Source of the DNA: Isoetes taiwanensis
Taxonomy: Eukaryota; Streptophyta; Lycopodiopsida; Isoetales; Isoetaceae
DNA: 64,000 nucleotides
Assembly: GCA_021234155.1 (NCBI GenBank)
Contig: JAJEKV010000016.1
Coordinates: forward strand, 20,090,441-20,154,440
Direction of reading: 5' to 3'
The notes under the pieces are model-generated. The model was not told the origin of the DNA. It searched no databases and saw only the letters and a program-made list of their open reading frames with translations. This document shows, in pieces, positions 9,527 through 49,178 of this stretch; position 1 is the first letter of the stretch, and each line of letters opens with the position of its first letter. Made by a program: the position numbers and the translations under genes.

Positions 9527-10400
9527 TTACTTCAGATTTGATAAATACAGGACCCTCATTCCATCCCACCATAAGTTCGCGTGCTCTACTGGATCAATCA
9601 AGCTGTGAACTTTCCAGCAAATCTTCGATGTAGTCATTGAGAACTTGATCATAAAGTTTCTTAAGACGTTCTGAGGCCCGCTCTTTTTCTTTGTCAGAAG
9701 CATTATCCAAATGAAAATTCTCTGTAATGAATCGCTGAAAACCTCCAGTTGCTTCAAACTGAACAGGACAAGAACCAGCAGTAAACAAAGGATTGAATGC
9801 CAGCAAAATAGAAAACGTCATCATATTCCTGAGCAGGATCACCAGCAGCATATGATGCTTTTGCAAGACCACTCAAATCAACCTTACGGCCAACAACTAG
9901 AGACAGATTTTGGCAGTCCATTCTGTGAATGCAGGGGTGTCAAAGTATCAAAACAAGGGCCACTCTGCCACCAGCAACAGCTAATTAGTAGTACTTGTGC
10001 ATTCAGAAAATGCACTGCTAAATTTTATATATACTGAATAAAGCATCCCAGGCTTAGAACTATTTGATGGTCTAAAGTCAAAATGATATGCTACGTGCCC
10101 ACTATAACTTACAAATGTTGAGAATGAAATGCCTGCTAACAATAATACATTGATGTGCATTCCAGCATTATGCCCATGTCATGCTCTAACACAATGTATC
10201 GAGATTGGAATTAAGACTTACAATGGCATGAATGAGGATGCTGCGTGATTCGACAATTCCCACTTCTGCTCCATCTTGAGAAGCAGACCATCCAGGTTCA
10301 TATGCCTCCAGAAAAGCAAGTTTGGCTTTGTTTGGCAAGTCATGAGGATGAACAAATGGAACGCCAAAAGGCCACCCCAGTTCTGCTCACATTGCTGCAC
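9527..10400 (-). pseudogene. Fragments of an unidentified plant gene
   Basis: Two protein-like stretches on the minus strand look like exons of one gene. The first, about 10219-10390, reads LGWPFGVPFVHPHDLP and on to IVESRSILIHAI, and ends at a good donor, GTAAGT. The second, about 9590-9960, includes GRKVDLSGLAKASYAAGDPA and, in another frame, an acidic-basic helical stretch with ERLKKLYDQVLNDYIEDLLE. The frame changes and stops between and within them indicate decay. I do not recognise the family. The fragments sit between the CesA and PPR remnants on the same strand, which suggests one duplicated or captured block. Confidence 0.5.
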
Positions 10401-10960
10401 AGGGACTGTCTGAAGCAGTGAGATGATGCTCTTCACATTTGAGTTGCCCATCCTGAACAAGTGCAGAAATCATAGCATTCCAAGACAAATTATTTATTGG
10501 CATTTCTTGAAATGATTGGTATGCTTCATCTATATTCCCATTCTGAGCATAAGCTGTAATCATGATATTCCAAGTTGTGATATCATGTTCCGGCATTTGT
10601 TTGAAATTTTGTATAGCGTTCTCCAGTTCTCTATGCTTAGCGTACCCTGAAATTAATGAAGTCCAAGACATCACATTTTTGTGAGGCATTCATTTAAAAA
10701 GCTCTAAAGCCTCTGCCATCTGGCCTACCTGAGTAAAGGCTAAAATCAAGGCACTCCATGAAAATATGTCTGGGTCTGGCATTTGTTCAAAAACCTGCAT
10801 GGCTTCCTTTGGTTGTCCCAAATGGGCATATGAAGCAATCATGGTATTCCAAGAAAAAGCATCATGCTCAGGCATTCTGATGAGGAGCTCAAGTGCTTCG
10901 CTAACATTTGTGCATAAGCAGAAAGTGATCTACTCGAAGCTTATCCTCCAGATTGACCAA
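10387..10960 (-). pseudogene. PPR protein fragment, array of 31-residue repeats
   Basis: Minus-strand frame with at least four complete 31-residue pentatricopeptide repeats, each starting MP and carrying the W-N/T-x-M/L-I core (MPEHDAFSWNTMIASYAH is one start). All are S-type length. PPR proteins usually bind organellar RNA. A TGA at 10690-10692 interrupts the frame between two repeats, and a 1-nt shift near 10905 breaks an upstream repeat. There is no start with a targeting peptide, and the array dissolves after about 10450. It is a remnant, not a gene. It shares strand with the CesA and unidentified fragments next to it. Confidence 0.85.
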
Positions 10961-26340: not shown

Positions 26341-29069
26341 CTATAATCCATCAGGATCGAGCTCCACATCTGCAGGATCTCCAATCCACAAGCTTTCTTC
26401 ACGCCTCAGAAAACGGATTCTCAACTTTCCATCAGCATCTATGCCAGCAACCTCTCCCTTGCTCGCATATGTTTCAATACCCCAACCCCACCTTGGAGTC
26501 ACTACTGACCTCTTTATCCTTATCCTGTCGCCAATATGAAAAGACATTATCCTCTCCATCTCTGCAGGCTTACACACCCAGAGTCTCTCAAGGAAACAAA
26601 AAGCCACCCTCAAGTCACCATCGTCACCGATCCTATGAACTACACCAATGCTCTTGTGAGTAACTTCACCCCACTGATGGGTTGGTGTAGGAACCGAGGA
26701 CCTAACTCTTACCCAATCTCCTATACATATTGGCTGCTCTTCACAAACCTCCACTTCAGCAGGATCAAGCAACCAGGTTTTCTGAGTGACAAGGGAATAT
26801 GCCCTCAATCTGCCATCTGCATCAATGGATGTTATTGTTGCAAGTGTTCCTGAATCATTTCCAGACCACCCAAACCTAGGCTGAACGATCTGAGGTTTGA
26901 CCCGCACCTGTTCACCAACCTTTAAAGGCATTACCCTTTCTATCTCGCACGGCAACCCAATCCAATGTTCCTGCTCACCACAGACGCCAACAAGAATAGC
27001 TCGTTCCTCATTAACACCACCACAGTCCAACCCAATTCCTTGGACTATTCCAATACTTCCTGGTCGTACTCCCTTCCATCCATAGGTGGGCTCTTTCAAA
27101 TCTTCCTTCACCTTTACCCAGTCTCCAACATCAAACATATCCTCCCTTTCTATGTCGGCAGGATCACCCCGCCAGGGCAAGCTAAGCCCTGAAAATGCAA
27201 CCCTAACAACCCCATCTGCGTGAACTCCTATTATTACTCCTTTAGAATCTGGAGAGCACCCTCGCCAGCCCCATCGTGGCTCTACTACACCTGCGCGAAA
27301 ACGCACATGTTGTCCAACCTTCAAGCTTGTAACCTTTTCAACTTCCGTGTAATGTGCCACCCAGCGACCAGACCTGAAACAACCAGCTACTTCTAAATAT
27401 CCATTGTCTGATATGCTGTGCACCACAGCAACACTGTCTTTTCCAGAACCATGCCAATCATAACTCGGTTTCACTCCAGATGACGAATTCAGACGAACCC
27501 AATCGCCAACCTGGAAGCCTGATAACCTCTCGGCATCTCCCGGTGCTATTCTCCACAGTGTGCTCCTGTTCGCTACTTTTACCTAATAAGGATAAAATTC
27601 ATTGATATTCTTAGAAGAAAGTAAGTATCCAGAGAAATAACAAAGATGGTCTTAAGAGAGTACATTTAGTGTGCCATCCATATCAATCCTTGCAATTTTC
27701 CCAGTGGTTGCAGATGTTTCTCCCAACCACCCCAGCAGTGGCTCACTTACTGATGGCGAGATGTGGATTTCCTGATCAATCTCAAATGGGCTTACCTTTT
27801 CTATGTCAGTCAATGAACAAGAAAAAGCCTTTGTTCTAAAACAGAACCCCAAACCCACATCCCCCTCATCAAGAAAGTACACAACTCCAATGCTGCTCCG
27901 AGTTACATCCTCCCATCCATACTTCGGAGAGGACACAGAAGCTTTAATCCGAACCCAATCGCCAACCTGAAAATAGTTTGTAAGTAGAGTCACCAATAGA
28001 TAGATGCGACCAAGGAGAAAATTGGGACTCAAACTGGACAGCAAAACATACATTGCAACATCCAAACTAATAGATTCTACACCTTAAAATCTTCCACTTT
28101 CTCCATGTCTGATGGATCTGCTTGCCATGAAGTAGGCCGCCCAGGAATATTTATTATAAGTAAGCCATCATTACCCACTTCACTTATCACTCCAACGCTG
28201 TGGTGCGTTTCTCCACCCCATGCATATCTTGGTTCAGCTACAGATCTTTTTACACACACACGATCCCCAACCTTTATAAAGTAGATATTATTAGTCAATC
28301 AGGAAAAAACCATCCTGCTTCCTATTCCACTTTCGAGTTACGAAGTAAGAAACACCTCTGCTTTTATACCTTAAATGGTTCAACAGCTTCAACTTCTTCT
28401 GGTTCACACCGCCACGGACTTTGTAACCAACTCAAGTCAAGAAGCAGACTATTGTCTGGCCTTATGCTATAGACAACGCCAATGCTACCTGGAGTTACTG
28501 GACCCAACCCATGCTTTGCTGAAGTAAGAGAGGGGCGTATTCTAACCCAGTCTCCAACCTTAAATTCTTCCACTCTTTCCATTTCTGCAGGATCTGCCTT
28601 CCAACCCCTTGAAGCTCCAGGAAAACCCACTCGTAAAATACCATCATCATCAATACATAGCACCGTCCCAATGCTGTCACGTGACTGCCCTCTCCATCCA
28701 AACCTGCATTAGGTCCAAGGCCAACTGTCACAACTCTTACAAATATCCATACAAATACATGGACATATGATTGACATGCATTCTGCCCCCATTCTTGGAG
28801 CTTCCTGCTTATATTATGAAATAAAGAAATTAGTTACGCCTCATTTCATCATTACCTTGGCTTTTGATGTCTGACCTCAATCCAAAGGAACAACTTTTAC
28901 CACTTCCTCTCCCAACGCCTTCACCTCACCAGTACAGAATGCAATAATGAGCTCATTCTTATCCAGAATTGCTTGGACAAAGCCCACACTTCTATGCTTT
29001 GCACCCTGCCAACCATACTTTGGGGCCGTTACATCTCTTCTAAACTTTACCCAATCACCTGTTTCATAG
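26341..29069 (-). CDS. KEG: KEG exons 12-16: HERC2-like repeats
   Basis: A run of related units of about 60-65 residues, each opening GDWV or GDRV, then a Pro/Gly/Trp-rich W-G core (GWQGAKHRSVG, GWRGQSRDSIG, AWGGETHHSVG, GWEDVTRSSIG) and a closing W/DP-x-E-x-E segment. In Arabidopsis this region binds ABI5. The last exon is 1,242 nt and ends at TAG 26341-26343 after DPADVELDPDGL. Exons 13-16 are fully open and in phase with each other, but they lie downstream of the stop and frame change in exon 12. Confidence 0.92.
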
Positions 29070-32000
29070 CTGCAAGGGGACAGTTCTATTAAAATTGATT
29101 TAAGTAAAAAAAATACACATTTATGCATGACATACACGGCAGGAGTTAATTGAATCCCCTTTCTAGAAAGGGCCTCGAGAAGATCTTCTGACATCCATTC
29201 CCTTGGAAGTGCTTCAAGAAGGTCTTTCAATGTCTTGCCACTGTAAGCATAAACCATCACCAGTAACATGAGCATTTACTGATCATTTATGTGCCCAAAA
29301 TAATGTTAATAAACAAAGCAACAAGTCCAACTCTAATCACAGGCGGTTTGTTCATTACATTTTGCGGGCATAGTTATAAAAAACAAGTTTGTTAAGCGGG
29401 AGAGAACCACCCTAACTGTAACAGCATGCCAGGTAAAAGTGCATTATGCGGACACTTTGCCCAAACAAGAAGAGGCAAAAGAGAGCACACCAACAACTCA
29501 GTTCAGTTTTCTGGCACGGGCATAGCCCAAGGGTAAACTGCCCACTAAACAATCTTTAAAAGCATGCTTTCATTTAACTCATTCTAACCAATGGATGATG
29601 AAATCAGCATTATAATGGACCTGTGATTCTTGCAATCTGTTGGAGAATTAGAATGCTCCAGCATGGTAACAATCCAACCAAGATTTTCTCTCACCACCTT
29701 CGCCATTTTTGCAGCAATATGAAATGCATTATCTCCTTCATCATCCTGCAAACACAAACATAAAGGTCAATATATTCAGCCTGTAATGAGAAAAAACTTA
29801 ACAGTTGACAGCAGAAAGATCAGAAATGAGTCCAAAACATTTATAGTCAAGATAATAAGAAACATGTAATGCCAAACAACAAAAATATTTAAACATATCT
29901 TTGAGAAAACTTTATGACTTTAACATTCTTCACATTATTGTTTTATTGTACTATTGAAAAACATATTCCGGGTCCCACTGTTGCGCTCAATTTCTCCAAC
30001 AGCCTACAACACATATACGAGGCAGGGCAGCCAGTGAAGAATTACATTTCCTACAATGTCCGCCCATAATGCCCAGGCCAGTGAAAAAGAAACCCGGAGT
30101 CTGTGTAAGACTCTCTCATCCTCTAATCAGATTTCGGGATCAAAAGAATAAATATAGGACCATATATTTAGCAACTAACATAATGCACCCCAGGGGGTCT
30201 GCAGTCTTAAAGGGGGGGTCTGCAGTCTTAAATCTTAAGGTCATAAAGGAGCCCCCGTATTCGGATCTCAATCCAGCACTTGATGCGATGGTAGTAAAAA
30301 TGCCCTACAGTCTCATCTCAGGGATGGACACAGCTTTGCTTCAAAAAGGATGAGCATATTGCCAAAATCTTACATGTAGTTATCTTTAGTAGTTATGGGG
30401 AGAGCAATAAACAGTGACCAGAGTCACAGAGCAGGATTCTAAAAGCATCCTTTTGGAGAGCAAAACAAGCATCAAAAGAGGTTGACAAGATGTCCTCAAG
30501 TGCTAAAGTAAAAACAAATGTTTAAGTTATTAGAGATTCTCTTTTGGTCTGAATACAGCCTACCTACACCATGTCCCTTAGGTTTATTTATATATGCTGT
30601 ATCATGTACACATACAAATTTACAGATCTATCATCACCCACTATTATAAGACTGTACCTGCAAGTTGCAGTTTGCTCCTCTTTCCAAAAGCAAACCAACA
30701 CATTCCTTTGATCCTTTTGTCAAAGCAACATGCAAAGCTGAAGAATTGTGGGAGTCACGAACATCAATATCAACCCCCGCATCCAGAATTATCTGCAAGT
30801 TGAAGACAAAATTTAGACATTCATGACCAGAAACTTTCAATCTGTCTTTTACCTCACCTTCACCATATCAACATCATTAGAAATAGCAGCAGCATGTAAT
30901 GCCGTGTGACCATGTTCGTTATCAATTGCATTTGGATTTGCCCCTGCACCCAAAAGTAGCTGTACAAGCTTCCTTGCCTCTGTAAATTTGAAGAACCAAA
31001 ATGATATAATACAGAACAACCATCATACAGCTATGCACTTCTACAAGAAAAATATATGACCTGTTTCATGTGCCTTCTTAAGGTTGGCTGCTATACAAAG
31101 AGCCGTACCCCTTGGACTAGGAACGTCGATAGCAGCAACTATTTCATCTTCTGTTGCTATTTCTGTCCATTTCTTTACGATTGCAACACTAGGATTAACG
31201 ATGCACATATGCAATGGTCTGCATAACACTTCCACCATATCATAAGCTATCTAACTATCAGAATATTTAAAAATCTAGCGCATTGACCATGCATACGTTA
31301 GGTGTTTAGAATTAAGGACGCTCATGGATCTGCAACCACCATTCTCTAATATCACTATTGCACATTCAACGTGACTTTTTGCTATCGCTTGATGAAGAAC
31401 AGTATCTCCTCCATCGTCTACGGCATTTGGGTCGGCTCCTGCCGAAAGCAATTCCTGTTGAAACAGCTACTAATCAGTCATATCATAAATCTCAAGTAAC
31501 AGCAGATTGCAAAAAAATAATGCTTACCATCATGCATTCTGGTTGGCCATGAAAAGCACAAACATGAGCTACAGTTGGTCCAAGTCCTTCTTTAAGACGT
31601 GCGTTAACATTTGCTCCCTTCTTAATAAGCACTTTTAGGCATTCAGGTGTACCACAAGCCACTGCACATACAAGCGGAGGATCGCCATCCTTGTCTAGAA
31701 TATCGGGATCAGCCTCAGGATGCTCAAGAATCATTTCCATTATGCTGGAATATCCTCTCATGGCAGCCAAATGGAGTGGCGTTTGCCCATCCGAGTTGTG
31801 TGACTCTAAAATAGTACCAAGTGTGTTCGTTGCTTTATCTGAAGCGGCTTTAGATAGCAAATCCCTACAGAGAGAGAGATCTATTAACGTCTACTGGAGA
31901 TCCATCAGATCATACCAAGGTAGATACATGTTGAACTTGCAAGAAGATTATGCACCCTCCTAGTCATTTACTGTACTCATTTAACGTAATCTTGTAGAAT

Positions 32001-35000
32001 GTCATATTTTCAACCCCTGATATCAGATTTGGTGTTGATTGTATCCTTTTCTTTCTACCTAACTTCCTCTTCTCAAGAACTGCTTGTATTGTTGTTAATC
32101 ATTTTATTTTCTTGAAAGTTTGTTAATCTATAAAGCATTTGGTATCGTTCCTAGAAATCACCTATTTACAAGATTGAAGTTCTTAGGACTTTCAAATGAG
32201 CTTACTTGGGTAGTGCTAACTCGCCATAAGAAAATATTTGAAAGGATTAAAATGTCAGATGAGGTAGATGAGCCCTATTACCAACCCTATTTGGGCTCTG
32301 ATGAGCTAGAGAACTTCATTAACACATTTGACGGAGAAGGGTCCTTGTTAAAAATGGATCCCCGTCCTGCTTTATGCAGATGATGTAAGACCGAGGACTA
32401 CACTTCATGGCTTCTTGCAAAGAGAATGTTTCCAGAGGTATGCTGTAAATACTAGTTTTTTTTGTTCAACAGCTTGGTCAAACCAACTGCTTTTTATGGC
32501 AAGTTGGGCACCTGATCTCAGAGAAGATGAATGAAGTGCGTGCAACTTGAGGCTGTCTCCCAAGTAGTAACTTATTTTTATAAACTACAACCTTTTGCTG
32601 AGATTCATCCAAAAGCTCTGCTGACCAAGAAAAAAAGGTTTATTTTTCTACTGCTAAGCGGTTTGGTGAAATGGGCTTCTCGACGGATTGTCTTCCAACA
32701 TTTAAAATCCTTTTTCAGCTACAACCTTGACATAAAAGGTTTACTAGGCAAATATGGTTATTCGACGAAATTTGAAGCACATATATGTGGCAGACAAATG
32801 GACCTCCGCGAAAGAGGCATCTTCTAGAAGACAATTCTACAAGGGTACTCTCTTGATCACGGTACTTTCTTTTCTCGTGTCCTCCACACTAACTTCCTGC
32901 TCCAGATCATCCCTAACAGTGAAGAATCAAATCATTTCTATTTGCCTAAGACCTTTAGGATTCATGCTTTTCACTTTCTTTAAGGATGCACCTTCGTTTG
33001 GAGAAGTTTGTGGATGAACAGGGCCACACATTTCTGGTCATACTATCTCGTGGGCTGCTGCAGAGCAGTTGAATCTCTAAAACGGCAGTGAGAGGAAGAG
33101 AATGATGCTTGGAATTGTTAAACGAGAAGAAAAAAGATCTGTCACAGGAAATCCCAGGATGAGATCGCTTTGTTGAGTGATCCAAGATTGGACTTCAGCC
33201 AGTAAAAAATTCTGGTCCAAAAGCAACCAATTATGGTTCCAGTTGCATTTGCTTATTTCTAATTCACATCATTCTGGTGCCCGCACTGCAGAATTTACTA
33301 ATCATAACCTTCTTTTCAATGTAGCCTAACTGACTCATCTCTTGATCTGCTATATTTACCATTTCCAAACCTGCAAGTGCAGTTTTATTTTGCAGAATCG
33401 AAATAGTAGCCTTGGCCATGGGTTTTGTTGCAAGTATACTTACAGACATAAACACAAAGAAAAAAAAGGAACAGCAACTTATAAGGCACGTATGCCTTTT
33501 GAGCATGTCTTTTGCACATTGACTAATCGATATTGCAATTGACATGATTATGAAAAATTGCAAAGGATCTCAAAGAACTTACTTGACAGCTTCGATGTCG
33601 CCTTCGGAAACAAGCTGATGAAACGATGATTGGTCCATCTGACCAAAGTCGAGAATGCACGAGGGTGATGTCTTGGTTCCTTGTACTTCGCCATCTTTCG
33701 ACGGGTCACTTTACAACAGAAGATTAAATTAGAAAATAGATAGAATGATAAATGCCTAGTAAACACAGCTACAAATTAAAATTAGGAGAAGTAAAAATAA
33801 TTAGAATTTTCAGACTCTACGTATTCTTTTTCTGATTAAAAAAAAAAGAATCTTCTGGTGTTCATCTAACTATAGTCATGTATTTTTAGTGCGCACAATA
33901 TTGTCATGTAAGACCAGTTTATTTGAAAGACTCAGCAGAGTATGCTAGCAATTTGTGTCTTTCAAGTTAAACAGGGGTATCCTACTTTTCCTTATTCCAG
34001 TTGGCTCATACATTGGTAAATCCATCAAAGAACATTGTTCACATGTGATGGCATTAAGAGCACTTTCCAAAAAAAGGAAATGTGTAAAACCAAAAGCCAT
34101 GATCTTTGCACTTGTGTGGCAGCTCTTTCTCCCTTTAAGGTCAACTGTTATATATTTGAATTGCCATTTATAGACACTTTGTGAGTGGAGTTCTCAGGCC
34201 CATTCTTCAGGTTAAAAATTCTGGGTCTGACTGTCATGTCAAGCTATACACTTCCAAGAAGCCAGTGAGTTCTTGCACTGTAGCCAGCTGTTTGAACGAT
34301 GGATCCAAAATTTTGAGGTTGTCAAAAACATGCCCCCAATAAATAGATGAAGAAAGTGATTGATTAATCGAGCAAATGCCTCAAAAGCCTGATATTACTT
34401 CTGCAGTTGCAGGCTTCTTCGATTTCGAGTCTGTTTTGAATGCTCTGAGCTAATGATCAGGCACTCACCAATAAATGGACTCCACTAACAAGACTTTCAA
34501 TACTAAGGGACTGATATATCTTGCGACCTTACAAATCCTAAGGGACACCAGTAAACGTTAATAAGTTCTTTCTTTCAATCCTATCCTATAATGACTAGGA
34601 GCAAATCTTCTGTGGTCCATATAACACTGCTGACGGAAAACCCTTCTAACTTGAAGTAACATTTTAAGCAGTGGCGTGTGTCCACATCATAACCTATATA
34701 AACTCGTGAAAAACAAAAGTCAGTTACAGGATTTGGCTTTGAAACATGGATGAGAGTGGGAATGCTAGTTCTCAAAGATTCAGCTCCCTTGGTTCTGAAC
34801 GACTTGGGCTTCCACTATTTTACCAACTTGAACCATCTTACTTGGAGCAGCTCATACATAGGTGAATACCATAATCAAGGAGCTGTTCACCAAAAGGAAC
34901 AAGTTAACTGATGGTTTTGTTCGATCTTCATTTTCCAACTAATTCATGATTTTTAATGGAGCAGCCATCTAATGACGATTAAGTTAGACTCCAACTGTCA

Positions 35001-36668
35001 AACTTATATTAGTATGTTTAGGAGGACTGTGAAGGAGACTCAGACTAGATCTAAGGAGCTACACAAGCTGTGATGCCTATACACAAAAACTGACGAAGAT
35101 ATATAACGAAACAAAATTCAAAATCCTAAAGGAGGAACTAACATACTTATCAGGGCTGGCAGGTGGACTCAATGGCATTTCTCGCAAATGCCTCAAAAAA
35201 AGTGCCAGCATAGCGTGAAATGTAGGTCTTTTTTGTGGCTTGAACAGTAAGCACTCTCCAATCATTTTCCACAGCTCTCTAGGTATCCCCCCTCCTACCA
35301 CCCCAATGTATTGCGGAGGCTGTCTTTTCGTTTTCACAACTGCCTTGTAGATCTCATCGTGGCTGAAACCTGCCCAGCTGTAACAATTTCTCGTATTAGG
35401 TTTATACAATGGCCAAAACGAATATAAAACATAAAACTAGAGCATCACTCACGGAACAGCCCCTGTACACATCTCAACCAATGAACACCCAAAACTCCAA
35501 GCATCCGATTCTGCTGAAATTCCAATAGCATCTTCCCAAAATATGTTTAATGATGACTTTTTCAATGGTTCCCAGGCTTCTGGAGCAATGTAATTTGGGT
35601 TAAACGTTGCACAATCAATACAAAAATGAGCCTGAACGGCACCATTATCCCCTGGGTTCATGCGTGCTCGCTTACAGTTGGGTCTTTTCAGTATTTCTGG
35701 CATACCATAATCAGACACAACAGCTCGACCTTTGGCATCCAGTAAGAAGTTAGAAGGCTTCAAATTCATGCACACTACCCCAGCTGCTTGCAACTCTGCA
35801 ACTCCACGAGATACGTCAGCCCCATACCTGCAAAGATATAAAAAAATAAGAAACAAAGATGATCTTGCAAAAATTTGATCAATTCAAGCTCCTTCGCCAA
35901 TATCACGTGCATTGGAAGTGTAAAATATCATAAATATCTATCATACCGCAAAATTTGCTCCAATGTTAGGCGCCCTTCATTCTGCTGCATGACAGCCTGA
36001 ACTGAGGTGCTGTATCTTTCCATTAAGATACACAATTTTCCATCCTTCTTGCATGCTCCATAAACTGTGCAAACATTTTGACACCACATAGCTGCCCGCC
36101 GTAAATTTTCTAGTTTGTTTTGGATCCATTCCAAGTCCATGCCCACAGGAATGTCTAACCTCTTAACGGCTACCTTGTGCCTGCAACCATTAGGTCCTGT
36201 TAAGACTGCAGACCACAAGTCCTGCCCTGGCCAGGGGCCAGAACTAATCAATCTCACCAGCCGCATAGAATGGGAACCCAAATCTGTGGAAATGCCATTG
36301 CACGCAATGGGCCAGGAAGAGTTAGCATAACTACTATTTCCTCGGGAACGCTCTGATGAGCAATCCAACTCATATTCCTCTTCAGACTCGTCATCGTGTG
36401 GGCAATCTGATTGTGCCTGTCGGATGAGCGTGAGCATGCCAAAGTTCTTGCGTAATGCTTCCACGCTATTCCCCACGCGTGAAGATTGCCTACAACGTGG
36501 ACACAAAAGTGTATGATCTGTGCTACGTGAAAACATATGTGCCAAACATTCCTTGCAAAAGCTATGGCCACATTGCAACATCATAGGCACCCTTTCATCC
36601 TCATTGTAGGTCATATTACAAAGGGAACACTCGGGCAGCTTCATCTTGGTTCCCTTTGCCAATTCCAT
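26341..36668 (-). CDS. KEG: KEG-type E3 ubiquitin ligase gene, 16 exons, broken in exon 12
   Basis: Exons (minus): 36668-35947, 35827-35453, 35377-35147, 33708-33583, 31864-31528, 31454-31297, 31218-31061, 30979-30858, 30792-30658, 29745-29621, 29240-29136, 29069-28856, 28703-28370, 28271-28083, 27966-27664, 27582-26341. All junctions are GT-AG and phases match, except around exon 12. Domain order is RING, kinase, ankyrin repeats, HERC2-like repeats, unique to KEG. In Arabidopsis KEG ubiquitinates ABI5 and other abscisic-acid factors and acts at the trans-Golgi/early endosome. The summed exons are close to the family's usual length of about 1,600 residues. A TGA at 28877-28879 would end the protein at 928 residues, before most HERC2-like repeats, and about 20 nt appear missing beside it. 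Either the allele is recently dead or the assembly is wrong there. Start chosen as the first ATG before the RING. Confidence 0.93.
28856..28882 (-). other. KEG: Lesion in KEG exon 12
   Basis: After VVPLD (Asp codon at 28880-28882) the frame reads TGA, then GGT CAG and a short run to the donor at 28856. In KEG relatives Asp is followed by Arg-Gly-Gln and about 11 further residues before the Pro-Arg at this junction. The observed segment is about 20 nt too short and leaves exon 13 out of phase. CGA to TGA is one transition. I found no alternative donor in exon 12 that bypasses the stop and restores phase. Confidence 0.75.
29136..33708 (-). CDS. KEG: KEG exons 4-11: ankyrin repeats
   Basis: Residues about 443-864. 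Exon 4 opens the block with FHQLVSEGDIEAV. Exons 5-10 carry ankyrin units with clear TPLHLAA, TVLHQAI, TALCIAA, TALHAAA, SALHVAL and NAFHIAA cores. Exon 11 ends the block with the conserved KTLKDLLEALPREWMSEDLL stretch that leads into the HERC2-like repeats. Introns are mostly short (about 70-120 bp), but those before exon 4 (1,438 bp), exon 5 (1,718 bp) and exon 10 (912 bp) are longer. No lesion is seen in this block. Confidence 0.92.
32120..33090 (+). pseudogene. Nested plus-strand remnant in KEG intron 4, possible B3 fold
   Basis: Within the long intron between exons 4 and 5, the opposite strand carries protein-like pieces. One 87-codon frame (32120-32383) is unrecognised. Around 32840-33060, spread over two frames, HTNFLLQI, FYLPKTFRIHAF and EKFVDEQGHTFLVILSRG sit in the order of a B3 DNA-binding domain. 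Stops and shifts rule out function, and the family call is weak. Confidence 0.25.
35147..36668 (-). CDS. KEG: KEG exons 1-3: RING finger and kinase domain
   Basis: Residues 14-59 form a C3HC4 RING (Cys14, Cys17, Cys33, His35, Cys38, Cys41, Cys56, Cys59) that would bind the E2 enzyme. An acidic linker follows (about 90-103). The kinase domain starts near residue 135, with the ATP-binding lysine in VAVK at about 169. Exon 2 carries the catalytic-loop counterpart VCMNLKPSNFLL, where the usual HRD is absent, and SDYG in place of DFG. The latter part matches the APE and WSFGC segments (APEAWEP, SDAWSFGC). KEG kinases of other plants show similar departures yet have reported activity. Exon 3 ends just after the kinase, at SPPASPD. 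Confidence 0.93.
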
Positions 36669-41578: not shown

Positions 41579-43209
41579 TTGAACAAAAGAATAAGGAAAA
41601 CTGAGGGAGAACAGTTGAAATTAGAAGTGGGTTTTGACACATATAACTTTGGCAGAAAAGAAGATGGAAGAAGCAAAAGGTTAGAGCACGAAAATATTGA
41701 TAAAATCATGGCTACTATGGAGTCAAATCTGCCACAGACATATGAGGAAGCAATACATGCAACAGATGGAGAATTATAGAAATAAGCAATGAATGATGAG
41801 CTTGCTTCTTTCAAAAAAACCAAAATCTATGAACTAGTTGAGAGGCCAGCAAACAAGAATATAATTGGAAGCAAATGGATCTTCAAGTTGAAATAGGGAA
41901 TCGATGGAAGCCTAAAACATAAGGCAAGATTGGTGGCACAGGGCTTCTTGCAGAAACAGGGAGTTGTTGATACATTTTCGCCTCTAATAAAGATGAATAG
42001 TATTAGAATACTATTGGCACTTGCTAATGCTAGGGATTTGGAGCTTCACCATATGGACGTCAGTACTGCCTTTTCAAAATAAATGAAGAGGTCTACATGA
42101 GACAAGCCCCCCGGATTTGACAATAAAAAAAAACATGGTATGGAAGCTCAAGAGAGCAATGTATAGACTCAAACAAGCACCTAGGCAGTGGTATCTCTGC
42201 ATTGATACTTATCTGAAGGAACAAGGGTTCAGAAAATTGAACAATGATGGTAATAATGATGTTTTACAACAAGAAGGAAATTATTGCATAATTTCACTAT
42301 ACGTTGATGATTGTCTTATGGTTGCTAATAATGTAAAGTGTCTAGAACACTGCAAATAGATTTTGAAGGACAAATATAAGATGGCAGACTTAGGGGAATT
42401 GAAGAAATTTCAAGTATGGAGATTACAAGGTGCAGAGACAAAAAAGACTTGTCAATCACACAAACAAGCAACATATGTGCAATTTTGAGAAGATTTGAAG
42501 TGGAAGAAAGCAAAACAGTGGTCACACCTATAGTACCAGGTTGCAAACTCACCTCTTGCTGCAGACCAGACATTTCTTTTTGTGTAAACTTGTTGAGCAA
42601 CTTCTGTGAAAATCCAGGAAAGCAATATAGGATGGCTGGAAAAAGGCCCCTCGGATATTTGAAGGGTTCACAAACGCAACGTATATATTTTAGAGGAGAT
42701 AATCTCCAGCTAACAACATACACTGGTGCTGATTGGGGAGGAGATAGAGATAGCATAAAATTAACAACAGGTTATAACTTACTGATTTGTGAAGCATCAA
42801 TAGCATGGAGGAGTAAAAAGCAATCTAGGATTACTATGTCAACTGCAGAAGCTGAGTATAATGCAGCATCATCAGCCTCAAGGGAAATTTTCTGGACAAG
42901 AGCTCGTTGGATGAACTTGATGCCATCCAAATAAGCCCTACTGTAATCTACTGTGATAGTATGAGCTGTATAGCCATTACTAGAAACCCAGTTCTTCATG
43001 AAAGAACCAAACACGTAGAGTTGCATGTCCACTTCATTCGGGATACAGTTCCAAAAGGAAAGATTAAATTGGAATATGTTAGAACAGAAGAACAAACAGC
43101 TGATGTATTAACAAAGGCATTGAATGTACAGAAATTTGATTATTTAAGACTGAAGCTTGGAATCAGACCAGTCGAACAGATGAATGAGATATGCATGAAA
43201 GGGGAATGA
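41579..43209 (+). pseudogene. Ty1/copia polyprotein remnant: RT and RNase H
   Basis: Collinear, interrupted copia pol. PQTYEEAIHATDGEL opens the RT region; then GSKWIFKLK, KARLVAQGF, HHMDVSTAF, a disrupted stretch, LKRAMYRLKQAPRQWY, the catalytic LYVDD at about 42299-42313, and PDISFCVNLLSN. RNase H follows with TYTGADWGGD, SRITMSTAEAEYNAAS, and after a stop VIYCDSMSCIAITRNPVLHERTKH and EEQTADVLTKAL. Several stops and at least two frame changes. No integrase or gag is recognised upstream, so the 5' part is missing or too decayed. Confidence 0.9.
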
Positions 43210-45187: not shown

Positions 45188-48100
45188 CAGAAAGAAATAA
45201 GTTAGAGTCCACAACATTTTGACCCCTATACAATCCATAGTCTTCCCATTTCCTGTCAAAATTAGCTCCAAATTTCTTTTTATGTGCTGTAGCAATAGTC
45301 TCAAAATCAAATTGAAAGTGCAATTTTATCCAGAAGATGGACACACTCTTTTTACCATATAACACCTGATTCCTTGCTTTCCAAATGTTCCAAAGGGCAA
45401 TATTAATAATTGAATTGACAAATTTATCATCATGATTTATAAGGGACATAAGATCCCCATTAATTCCAATCCCAAATTTGTCAGAGAACCAAGACCAGAA
45501 ACCATTCAGAGTGCTACAAAAGAAAATATGGCACATGTCCTCAGGCCTATTACAAGCTAAAGGGCAATTAGCAGAAATATTAGGGTTTCTTCTGGACATG
45601 GAGATCAGATTATTCAGACTGCCATTAGCAATGAGCCATATGAAATATGAGATTTTTGGAGGACAAATGCCAAACATTATGAAATAATTTCTTAAGCTGA
45701 TCATAACTAATGGACCATTTCAGCATAGCTTTACACCCATCAGTGTTGGAAGTCATAGCATTGTAAACATTTTTCACTTTATAATCCCCTTTTTCATTTA
45801 TCCTCCAGTCACTTTTTCCAGAGTTGACAGATAAGTTTGAGAGAAAGGGTTTGATGATAGAATAAATTTTCTTATCAGAAGAGGTGCCTCTAATAATACC
45901 TTTCAATCTAGTCCAAGAAATGATTCTTCCACGTACAAACATGTCTCTGATATAAACTAAACCAGCCCCATTTCTTATAAATTTTGGGATGCTTGATAGC
46001 AAGAACAGGAGAATTTTGCTCAGTCATGATGGGGTTCCAAAAGATTGGAACATCGGCATGTAGCTCATCTCTTTAATGAAATGGAAATTAGGAGAGATAG
46101 CATTCCAAGCCTTGATGAGATTGTGCATAAGAGGGGAGATGCTGGGGCCTGGTTTCAGTTGATTGAATGCAGAATGAGGAAGCAAATGATGAATCGAGGG
46201 GTGATCACAAGGGTGACTTAGAGATATCCAATACCTGATAAAGATATAAGCAGGAGATTGATTCCCATGTATTGCTTTCCAAATGAACTTGCCAGCAAGA
46301 GATTGAGCTTGGATAAAAAGATTCTTGCAACCTAAACCTCCAGATACTTTAGACTTGCAAATGGAATTCCAATTAACCAAATGACTTCCCTTCCAGATGA
46401 AATTTCTAATTATCTTCTCAAGCTCCAAATAAACATATTTGGGAGCTACTAGAGCTGTGGAAAAGTAGACATGAGAACTGGCGAGAACAGCATTAGCAAT
46501 GATAGTTCTACCTGCAAGAGAGAGATAATTCCCATAATTGTTCAACTTCTTTTTGATTCTCGAAATAATAGGATCCCAGAGGCCTTTGATGCTATGATTC
46601 AAAGCTATAGGCAATCCCAATAATTTAGTTGCCTGATTAGTAGGAAGGACATTGATACCAGCTAGAACTGGAATATTGAGGTCTCCAATGATCATACTTT
46701 TACACAAATTCAACTGAATACCAGAGGCAACAGAAAATTGCCTTAAGATCTTAAGAAAGAGATTGATATTCTGAAGATCAGCATCAAGGAAGGAGAAGGT
46801 ATCATCAGCATATTGGAGAATGGATATACTATCATCAGAATTTGGAAGTTTTAAACCTTTCAACCGAGCATTATTCTGATAATGTAGAGTGACCTTGGTT
46901 AAGAGTTCAGCAGCCACAAGAAAAAGATAGGGGGCTAGAGGACATCCTTGTCTAACTCCACAAGAGAGAGGAAAGAAGCCAGAAGGGACACCATTGATGA
47001 GAACAGCAGAATTGGACCTAGAGTTTAAACCATGTATTAGATTCATGAGTTTGGGGTGGAAGCCAATTTTAGACATGGCAAAATCTAAGAAATCCCACCT
47101 CACAGAATCAAAAGCTCTTTTAAAATCCAACTTGAGAAGAATGCAGTTTTGATTTGAGATTTTGTTCCAGTGCAAACCTTCCATAGCAGCCACATAATTA
47201 TCCAAGATATATCTATTTTGAAGGAAAGCTGATTGGTTTTGACTAATGTTCCTTTGAAGGAAGCTTTTGATTCTCAGGGCAATGATCTTAGCACAGAGCT
47301 TGTAAGTGGTGTTTGTGAGAGAGATGGGTCTCCAGTGCTGAAACTTAGAAGGATGATCAGCCTTAGGAATCAAAGAGATAAAGCCACTGGAAATTGAAGG
47401 ATGCAGATGATTATCATTCCAGAAGGCATGGACAAGGGAAATAACATCAGTTTTGAGTATATCCCAGAACTTGATGTAAAATTCTGCAGGGAGGCCATCT
47501 GGCCCAGGAGATTTGCCTTTGCTAAAGGAATTGAGAATCTCATAAATCTCATTGTGAGATGGAATGGCAGTAATAGCATCATCCATGATTTCACTAGGCT
47601 CAGGAAGAATAGAATCCACAGTGGAGATAAACTCTTTGGCTTCTGAGGTCATGTTGGGGGGAATTGGCTTGTCACTAAAGATATCCATATATCTGCTGTT
47701 GAAGAAATTTGCAATTTCAGAATGAGTACTATAATTGTTACCTTGATCATCAAAGGTCTCAGCAATGGAGTTTCTAAGCACCCTACTCTTTGCAACCCTA
47801 AAAAAGAATTTTGAGGAGCCAGAGTCCATATCATTAGTATACTTAATTTTACATCTAATAGCTGAACCCTTAGCTTCCATTTCCTCAATATTCTTAATTC
47901 TTCTCTCTAAAATTTCCTCCCCTACATGAAGATTATAATTAGAAGGATCATTCTGAAGAAGAGACCTAATATCCTTCATATACACTAGGAGCTGGTTTTT
48001 CTCCTTACTTATCTCCTCCTTGATAATTTTAGACCAGTTTTTAATCCACCCTTTGATTTGTTTGATCTTGGAGTAGAAACATTTCATAGAGGGCATCTGA

Positions 48101-48972
48101 TTACCAGCAACCATATTAGAGTTATTTGAGAGAGTCTCATAAAAGGATCTGAATTGAGAGCAAAATTTCTCATTCTCCAGAAGAGAGGAATTGAACTTGT
48201 AAGGCGTGCTCCCTTCTCTTTTAATGTTGATGACATGAGAGGTATGAAGGAACTGTGGCTGATGATCAGAAATAGAAGTTCCTTCATCACTTGTAACATA
48301 GCTATTGTCCCAGAAGGCTGTAGATGGGTTGGAGACATAGAATCTATCCAGAGTACAGAAAACTCTTGCTTTATCTTTTTGTTTGTTCGACCAGGTATAG
48401 GTGGCAGTAGAAGAGGGGATATAGATCAGATTATTATCAGCAATAAGAGAATCCCAATTTTCCCTTTCAGTTCTGGACATATTGATTTTATTTCCCAGTT
48501 TAAGATCCCAAGATGGAGTATTGTTGAAGTCACCAGCAATAATCCAATTTTCAAGAGATTGAGAATCCAACCAGGAATTCATTTCAGCCCAAATTGGTTC
48601 TCTATCTTTGGGAGAAGTAGGAGCATAGACATTGATAATGCCAAATCTGGAGTTAGAAACCGAGCAAATCATGGCTTGCCAGGCTCTTGAGGGACTGTTA
48701 TAAAAAGAAGAGTGATTGATATCTTTTTTCCTGATAATGGCCATTCCCCCACTTGCTCCAGATGAGCTGATCCAAATAGAGGTAGAATTAGGATAAATCC
48801 ACTCCCCTAAGTTACTACATTCAAAGGAGGGAAGTTTAAGCTCTTGAAGAATAATGATGTCTGCATTATATTGCCTGATTTGAGCAATAGCCCTTCTCCT
48901 TTTTAGAGGGCCTTTGATGCCTCTGAGATTCCAAGAAAGAATCTTCATATCAATGAGAGAAGAGAGAGACAA
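45168..48972 (-). pseudogene. LINE ORF2: endonuclease and reverse transcriptase
   Basis: About 1,268 codons. Apurinic-type endonuclease at residues about 9-235 (MKILSWNLRG, ELKLPS, GDFNNTPSW near 147, ISDHQP). The RT spans about 460-745 with LIPKADHPSKFQHWRPISL, LKLDFKRAFDSV, GVRQGCPLAPYLF and the catalytic YADD near 720. The Cys/His end domain follows (PPKISYFIWLI, CPLACNRPEDMCHIFFC). Two lesions: a TGA at 46024-46026, with the same frame open on both sides, and a 1-nt shift near 45671 before PPKISY. The 982-codon first part is intact and includes all catalytic motifs. Confidence 0.93.
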
Positions 48973-49178
48973 TAAGAAAGAAGGATCTATAGCCTAATCT
49001 TTCTAGATTTTCTTTTACTTCTTGTATTCTGAGCAGGAGTTTTATTGAAACCAGATAAAACCAAATCATTTTTAACCCTATCCTTTCTGACAGTTTTTTT
49101 CATAGGCTGGGACTTAATATGCACATGCATAGGATCAATACTAAGATTTTCATTTAAGTATTCTTCTTTGTCCCAGTT

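Follow-up and report, generated by a model that had tools for sequence, protein, structure and literature searches.

Apparent stop and 20-nt loss in the single KEG-type gene of Isoetes taiwanensis may be a local assembly error at an exon piece shared with Helitron elements

The window analysed here, a 64,000-nucleotide stretch of contig JAJEKV010000016.1 of the quillwort Isoetes taiwanensis, contains a KEG-type gene of 16 exons on the minus strand (26341..36668) whose only break lies at the end of exon 12, where an in-frame stop and a loss of 20 nt are found. We see an even chance that the plant carries an intact, single-copy KEG and that the stop and the 20-nt loss are a local long-read consensus error, and a local sequence error is considered more likely than a dead essential gene. 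The sequence-only reading of this DNA had named three outcomes, a copy that died recently while another exists, a 928-residue ligase, and an assembly error. The last is the best supported of these, because copies of the exon 12-13 region occur in Helitron elements and CG-centred patches of discordance occur in the assembly, although this support does not amount to proof.

The coding model of the gene, obtained from exon modelling, Pfam and tblastn, is 4,876 nt long. Exon 1 (35947..36668, minus strand), for which the first ATG was taken as the start codon with a second in-frame ATG downstream, encodes the N-terminal RING (zf-RING_UBOX, E 5.2e-9; zf-RING_2, E 2e-7) and the start of the kinase domain, which was detected after the RING in exon 2 (Pkinase, E 8.6e-11). 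Ankyrin repeats follow in exon 5 (Ank, E 1.7e-17), and the frames of exons 12, 13, 15 and 16 as well as a stretch of exon 14 contain SH3_15 (HERC2-like) repeats, exon 16 (26341..27582, minus strand) being a 413-codon open frame of repeats with no stop or frameshift. The sequence-only description of fifteen GT-AG introns (15 of 15 in the gene model) and of a full set of domains was borne out. Arabidopsis KEEP ON GOING (KEG), a RING E3 ligase of 1,625 aa whose loss is reported to be lethal, has the same domain order of RING, kinase, ankyrin and HERC2-like repeats. When an Arabidopsis KEG sequence was used as the tblastn query, a near-full-length alignment was obtained, in whose main stretches 45-82% of positions are identical when introns that were read through are counted in. 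Unlike Arabidopsis KEG, the quillwort gene has a broken exon 12 end in the assembly, and the HERC2-like array, which a KEG needs in frame with the rest of the protein, is out of frame in exons 13-16 as assembled on the annotated path. An erroneous lesion, or its removal by splicing, would leave the array in frame, and the locus was filed as a KEG gene by descent and not as a working KEG. Elsewhere in the window, an open frame of 989 codons that encodes endonuclease and reverse transcriptase domains marks a LINE-type element (46024-48993, minus strand), an RVT_2 match marks the remnant of a Copia-type element (42087-42359, plus strand), and a PPR-repeat frame lies at 10387-10689 on the minus strand, which accords with lycophytes having large PPR families.

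The lesion was then defined at the nucleotide level. Exon 11 (29136..29240, minus strand) ends in phase 2 (CCTGCCGT/GTATGT), and exon 12 (28856..29069, minus strand; 214 nt as assembled), which carries SH3_15 repeat 1 and the start of repeat 2, begins in phase 2. The tail of exon 12 reads GTT GTT CCT TTG GAT TGA GGTCAGACATCAAAAGCCAAG/GTAATG, that is, VVPLD directly followed by the TGA that had been pointed out from the sequence (28879-28877, minus strand), and the donor is reached 21 nt past this stop. Exon 13 (28370..28703, minus strand) is open and requires phase 2 at its acceptor (TAATGCAG/G), and it proved out of frame on the annotated path, along which the first stop comes after 928 aa, as had also been claimed. 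Two other copies of this junction, on contigs C962 and C930, have CGA in place of the TGA, and the suspected shortage of about 20 nt was found to be exact, with 20 gap columns in KEG against both. The expected exon end is retained in these copies as LDRG, a stop and then SVRLKYDIKQPR, compared with LDRGQHVRLRADVKEPR in the Arabidopsis protein. In the simplest reading, the lesioned exon end (28856..28882, minus strand) would have lost 19 nt in one deletion and a single nt in another, and would carry a C-to-T change in a CG together with one more base difference, all within 37 alignment columns; the aligner itself split the gap otherwise than in this 19+1 reading. The lesion lies at the only spot of the piece captured in these copies with 3 CG in 24 nt, and the 1-nt loss sits away from any CG. 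A 31-nt string of the lesion had a single match in the genome with up to 3 mismatches allowed, so the idea that another copy of the lesion had overwritten KEG was rejected.

To place these copies, the DNA matches of the junction were surveyed genome-wide; besides the gene itself, they comprised two long matches, on C962 (90% identity) and C930 (88%), and a piece of ~70 bp on each of C325 and C1076. In the 20 kb examined around each of the two longer matches, only ~690 bp align to KEG, with identical ends in both, and the shared piece (28354..29026, minus strand) takes in the greater part of exon 12 together with intron 12 and exon 13. Both KEG pieces lie inside a common stretch of more than 10 kb that is 93-96% identical, and on C962 Pfam matches to Helitron_like_N (E 1.8e-39) and PIF1 helicase (E 7.4e-29) were found on the same strand as the KEG piece. 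From these Rep and helicase domains, the two pieces are read as putative Helitron captures, the element on C962 at L001:2192-8435 carrying KEG exons 12-13 with their intron and the KEG piece on C930 lying at L004:1776-2468. Capture of gene fragments by Helitrons is known from maize and other plants, and the present case resembles it in that a KEG piece with its intron and with the same ends stands beside Helitron_like_N and PIF1 domains; it differs in that the helicase matches on C962 are split over several open frames. The ~70-bp pieces of exon 12 on C325 (L005:3967-4039) and C1076 (L006:3965-4033), whose surrounding DNA also matches the Helitron copies, are probably further descendants of the capture. 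Both captured copies are themselves damaged, with TAG at an Arabidopsis glutamine position and an intron 12 acceptor that reads AA where AG is required, and both keep the exon end that is missing from KEG. Therefore, the capture carries the older state, and the change in KEG is either younger than the capture or not real.

The captured piece also allowed the state of KEG around the lesion to be assessed. KEG and the C962 piece differ in 16 codons, 11 of them nonsynonymous; at 9 of these 11 sites the KEG residue equals the Arabidopsis residue, the captured residue does so at none, and the remaining 2 gave no decision. Sites with kept KEG residues flank the lesion on either side, KEG and C962 show no indel among their 24 other differences, and no other stop, frameshift or splice-site loss indicative of pseudogene decay was seen across the 16 exons. 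The kept amino acids and the lack of KEG indels thus indicate that KEG was under constraint until very recently, with all damage confined to the columns of the lesion. An old pseudogene was rejected, since there is no other lesion and no amino-acid decay on either side of this one, the KEG-side amino acids being kept over the captured piece.

A search of the genome (1,658,258,908 bases in 1110 contigs) found no second full KEG, either by protein with three exons or by DNA with the junction and the rest of the gene. The gene in the window was the only high-identity match for the RING/kinase exon, an ankyrin exon and the 413-aa repeat exon, with at most 39% identity elsewhere; exons 14-16 had no other DNA match in the genome, nor had exons 1-4 except for an intron repeat, and the remaining DNA searches returned only dispersed pieces of ~360 bp or less. 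Within the limits of these searches, the view of KEG as a single gene is supported, and the other copy required by the proposal of a recent death did not turn up. A dead copy here with a functional KEG elsewhere is the least probable of the explanations considered: gapped stretches (N) could conceal a copy and the searches ran exon by exon, but no match of comparable strength to the RING/kinase, ankyrin or repeat exons was obtained. Genes on C974 (at 11.6 Mb), C248 and C1087 that encode a kinase domain with SH3_15 repeats were rejected as a second KEG because they have no match to the KEG RING exon. They form a small family (L007:2205-4534 on C974, L010 on C248 and L008 on C1087) that is possibly KEG-derived, and, compared with the C974 gene, the C1087 copy has its repeat frame divided over two frames that overlap. 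No title among the literature matches listed concerned KEG in Isoetes.

The same searches showed that KEG has been copied piecemeal more than once. A second duplicated piece, comprising exons 8-9 and intron 8 (30655..31009, minus strand), is 91-96% identical to copies on C1045 (L014:3727-4082), C963 (L015:4249-4604), C1063 (L016:3564-3916) and C1064. The first three of these places were compared; they have 0.6-1.9 kb in common with one another and no match to the C962 Helitron, and the copy at L015 adjoins PPR-repeat frames. Further copies are of a stretch of intron 9, present in at least four places, of the end of exon 7 (three places) and of part of exon 10 (one place). Counted from the exon table, the duplicated share of the coding model is ~18%, of which 505 nt fall in the lesioned piece, so the location of the lesion in duplicated sequence is less telling. 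KEG is unbroken in the exon 8-9 piece and in all other duplicated pieces outside the lesioned one; duplication alone is therefore no cause of an error.

Consensus quality was evaluated by comparing duplicated sequences within the assembly. According to the assembly passages of PMC8566536, the I. taiwanensis genome was produced from ONT reads with miniasm, racon and pilon, gap filling by LR_Gapcloser, and purge_haplotigs, and in the benchmark passages of PMC6591954 methylation motifs, mainly Dcm sites, dominate ONT consensus errors in bacteria. In a 7044-column block aligned between C962 and C930, 30 identical runs of at least 60 nt hold 4861 columns, against 915 expected if the differences were evenly spread, and dense scrambled patches lie between these runs. 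Within 3 nt of a CG were 63% of the differing columns vs 21% of the matching ones, compared with 65% vs 37% near a GC, so the enrichment is strongest at CG and is not confined to it. Counted by site, a nearby difference was present at 77 of the 172 CG sites and at 729 of the 4908 positions that served as controls. Differences are unevenly spread in the adjoining 3926-column block as well, where the CG excess is smaller (43% vs 25%). In other pairs, the share of differing vs matching columns near CG was 48% vs 15% for L005/L006, 28-60% vs 8-30% for the exon 8-9 copies, 29% vs 13% for the L007/L008 gene pair, 19% vs 12% for L007/L010, and 17% vs 15% in the main block and 60% vs 20% in the flank for L012/L013. 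None of the 112 gaps in the patchy 7-kb Helitron block exceeds 8 nt. Longer gaps occur in the adjoining 3.9-kb block (16 and 45) and between L005 and L006, a CG-enriched pair (11 and 13), and clean indels of 8-45 nt separate gene-like duplicates in this genome. CG-centred patches, which hold most of the differences in the aligned front part of the two Helitron copies, were also seen among the exon 8-9 copies. The patches between the Helitron copies are read as probable nanopore consensus that escaped polishing, a reading compatible with the published pipeline, and genuine loss of methylated CG may have contributed to them; they are a warning on consensus quality in the repeats of this assembly.

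On these grounds, the following course is proposed for the favoured consensus error. A Helitron appears to have picked up a KEG piece running from within exon 12 through intron 12 into exon 13, and then to have multiplied. The raw consensus of KEG may have been wrong at the CG-dense spot at the end of exon 12, and short reads from the true KEG would then fit the Helitron copies better than the wrong draft, leaving polishing blind and the spot unrepaired, while draft errors elsewhere in the gene, the remainder of which is clean, were presumably small enough for polishing. In a read score model that presupposes the lesion already in the draft, reads from an intact KEG scored higher on the Helitron copy in all 94 placements (median 130 vs 88), and such better alignment of reads across the lesion would make polishing blind exactly there. 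An error is further favoured by the intact splice sites of all 15 introns, the open state of all other exons, the exon end kept in the captured copies, the KEG residues kept on either side of the lesion, the confinement of the changes to 37 columns and the CG-dense setting, and, as in published nanopore errors at methylated sites, the discordances here cluster at CG between identical stretches. Against it, most of the lesion is a clean deletion of 19 nt, a length that no gap in the patchy block reaches, and the published cases in the passages of PMC6591954 are mainly bacterial Dcm sites. The 1-nt loss away from a CG and the intact state of KEG in its other duplicated pieces also count against an error. 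The CG signal is moreover impure, with GC-adjacent columns enriched too and an excess near CG even in the L007/L008 gene pair; real decay of methylated CG would add CG-centred substitutions; and long reads should place uniquely on KEG.

A real, recent loss-of-function allele is in our view unlikely but deserves some weight. Such an allele would have arisen by one complex mutation that broke exon 12 on one haplotype, the intact haplotype having been purged as redundant or the individual tolerating the loss. Its 19-nt deletion resembles the clean indels between gene-like duplicates, which are of the kind real mutations would give, and the lack of decay elsewhere fits a very young event. Because purge_haplotigs was applied to a diploid, as stated in the assembly passages of PMC8566536, a real and perhaps heterozygous allele becomes more possible. 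On the other hand, several changes within 37 columns require one complex event, and no second haplotype of the junction was found in the assembly. It is very improbable, in our estimation, that the product is instead a 928-residue ligase in which RING, kinase and ankyrin repeats are followed by only a small part of the repeat array. This product is possible on paper, with the N-terminal domains open up to the TGA, and in passages of the Arabidopsis work PMC11020294 a RING-kinase-ankyrin fragment pulled down MAPKKK18. The proposal fares poorly, however, against the ~690 fully open codons of exons 13-16 and the amino acids of exon 13, which have been kept since the capture. A stop four introns before the end of the gene is also expected to trigger mRNA decay.

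Splicing around a real lesion, either from a latent donor inside exon 12 to exon 13 or by skipping of the whole of exon 12, was also considered, and we judge it rather unlikely. The latent donor, AAA/GTATGG at 29019/29018 on the minus strand, is in phase 2, and joining it to 28703 would stay in frame and remove one repeat unit together with the lesion; skipping exon 12 also keeps the frame, since exons 12 and 13 are both entered in phase 2. The latent donor scored 8.3, compared with 8.0 for the annotated exon 12 donor and, for the 14 other donors, 0.4-8.0 with a leave-one-out matrix and 3.5-9.2 otherwise, and only 2 of 303 exonic GT reached 8.0. The products of the two paths are open (1570 aa with the latent donor and 1553 aa with exon 12 skipped), and the fused repeat is a full-length SH3_15 (61.6 bits, 1-67 of 67), the latent donor K/YGW in repeat 1 being the register-equivalent of the exon boundary R/FGW in repeat 2. 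However, nothing is broken in exon 12 ahead of the lesion or at the splice sites of this exon, and KEG-side conservation was seen at 28999 and 28903, inside the part to be excised; exon 12 was therefore coding until recently. The donor matrix, furthermore, came from 14 donors of one gene, the other exonic GT above 8.0 (27796 in exon 15, score 9.9) shows that such sites also arise where no use is suspected, and AAG-TAT-GG is present in exon 15 too. Exon 12 skipping as the main answer was rejected, as it predicts relaxation of the whole exon, contrary to this conservation, and acceptors upstream of the annotated one were rejected as well, with all 11 AG sites listed (28860-28704) running into a stop in the exon 13 frame. 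The narrower version, in which the lesion is real and fixed and KEG would survive by splicing K/YGW to R/FGW with one repeat unit excised, is doubtful to a greater degree than the bypass taken as a whole. If it were true, the AAG-TAT-GG motifs of the repeats would be built-in, in-phase donors, and the array could withstand a frameshift by having one unit spliced out.

A broken single-copy KEG in a lycophyte, if true, would challenge the view of abscisic-acid signalling outside seed plants. If the favoured consensus error is correct, a gene piece captured by a transposon could blind short-read polishing at exactly that piece, and where a long-read assembly shows an apparent lesion in a gene of which fragments have been captured, a read check is warranted before a loss is called.
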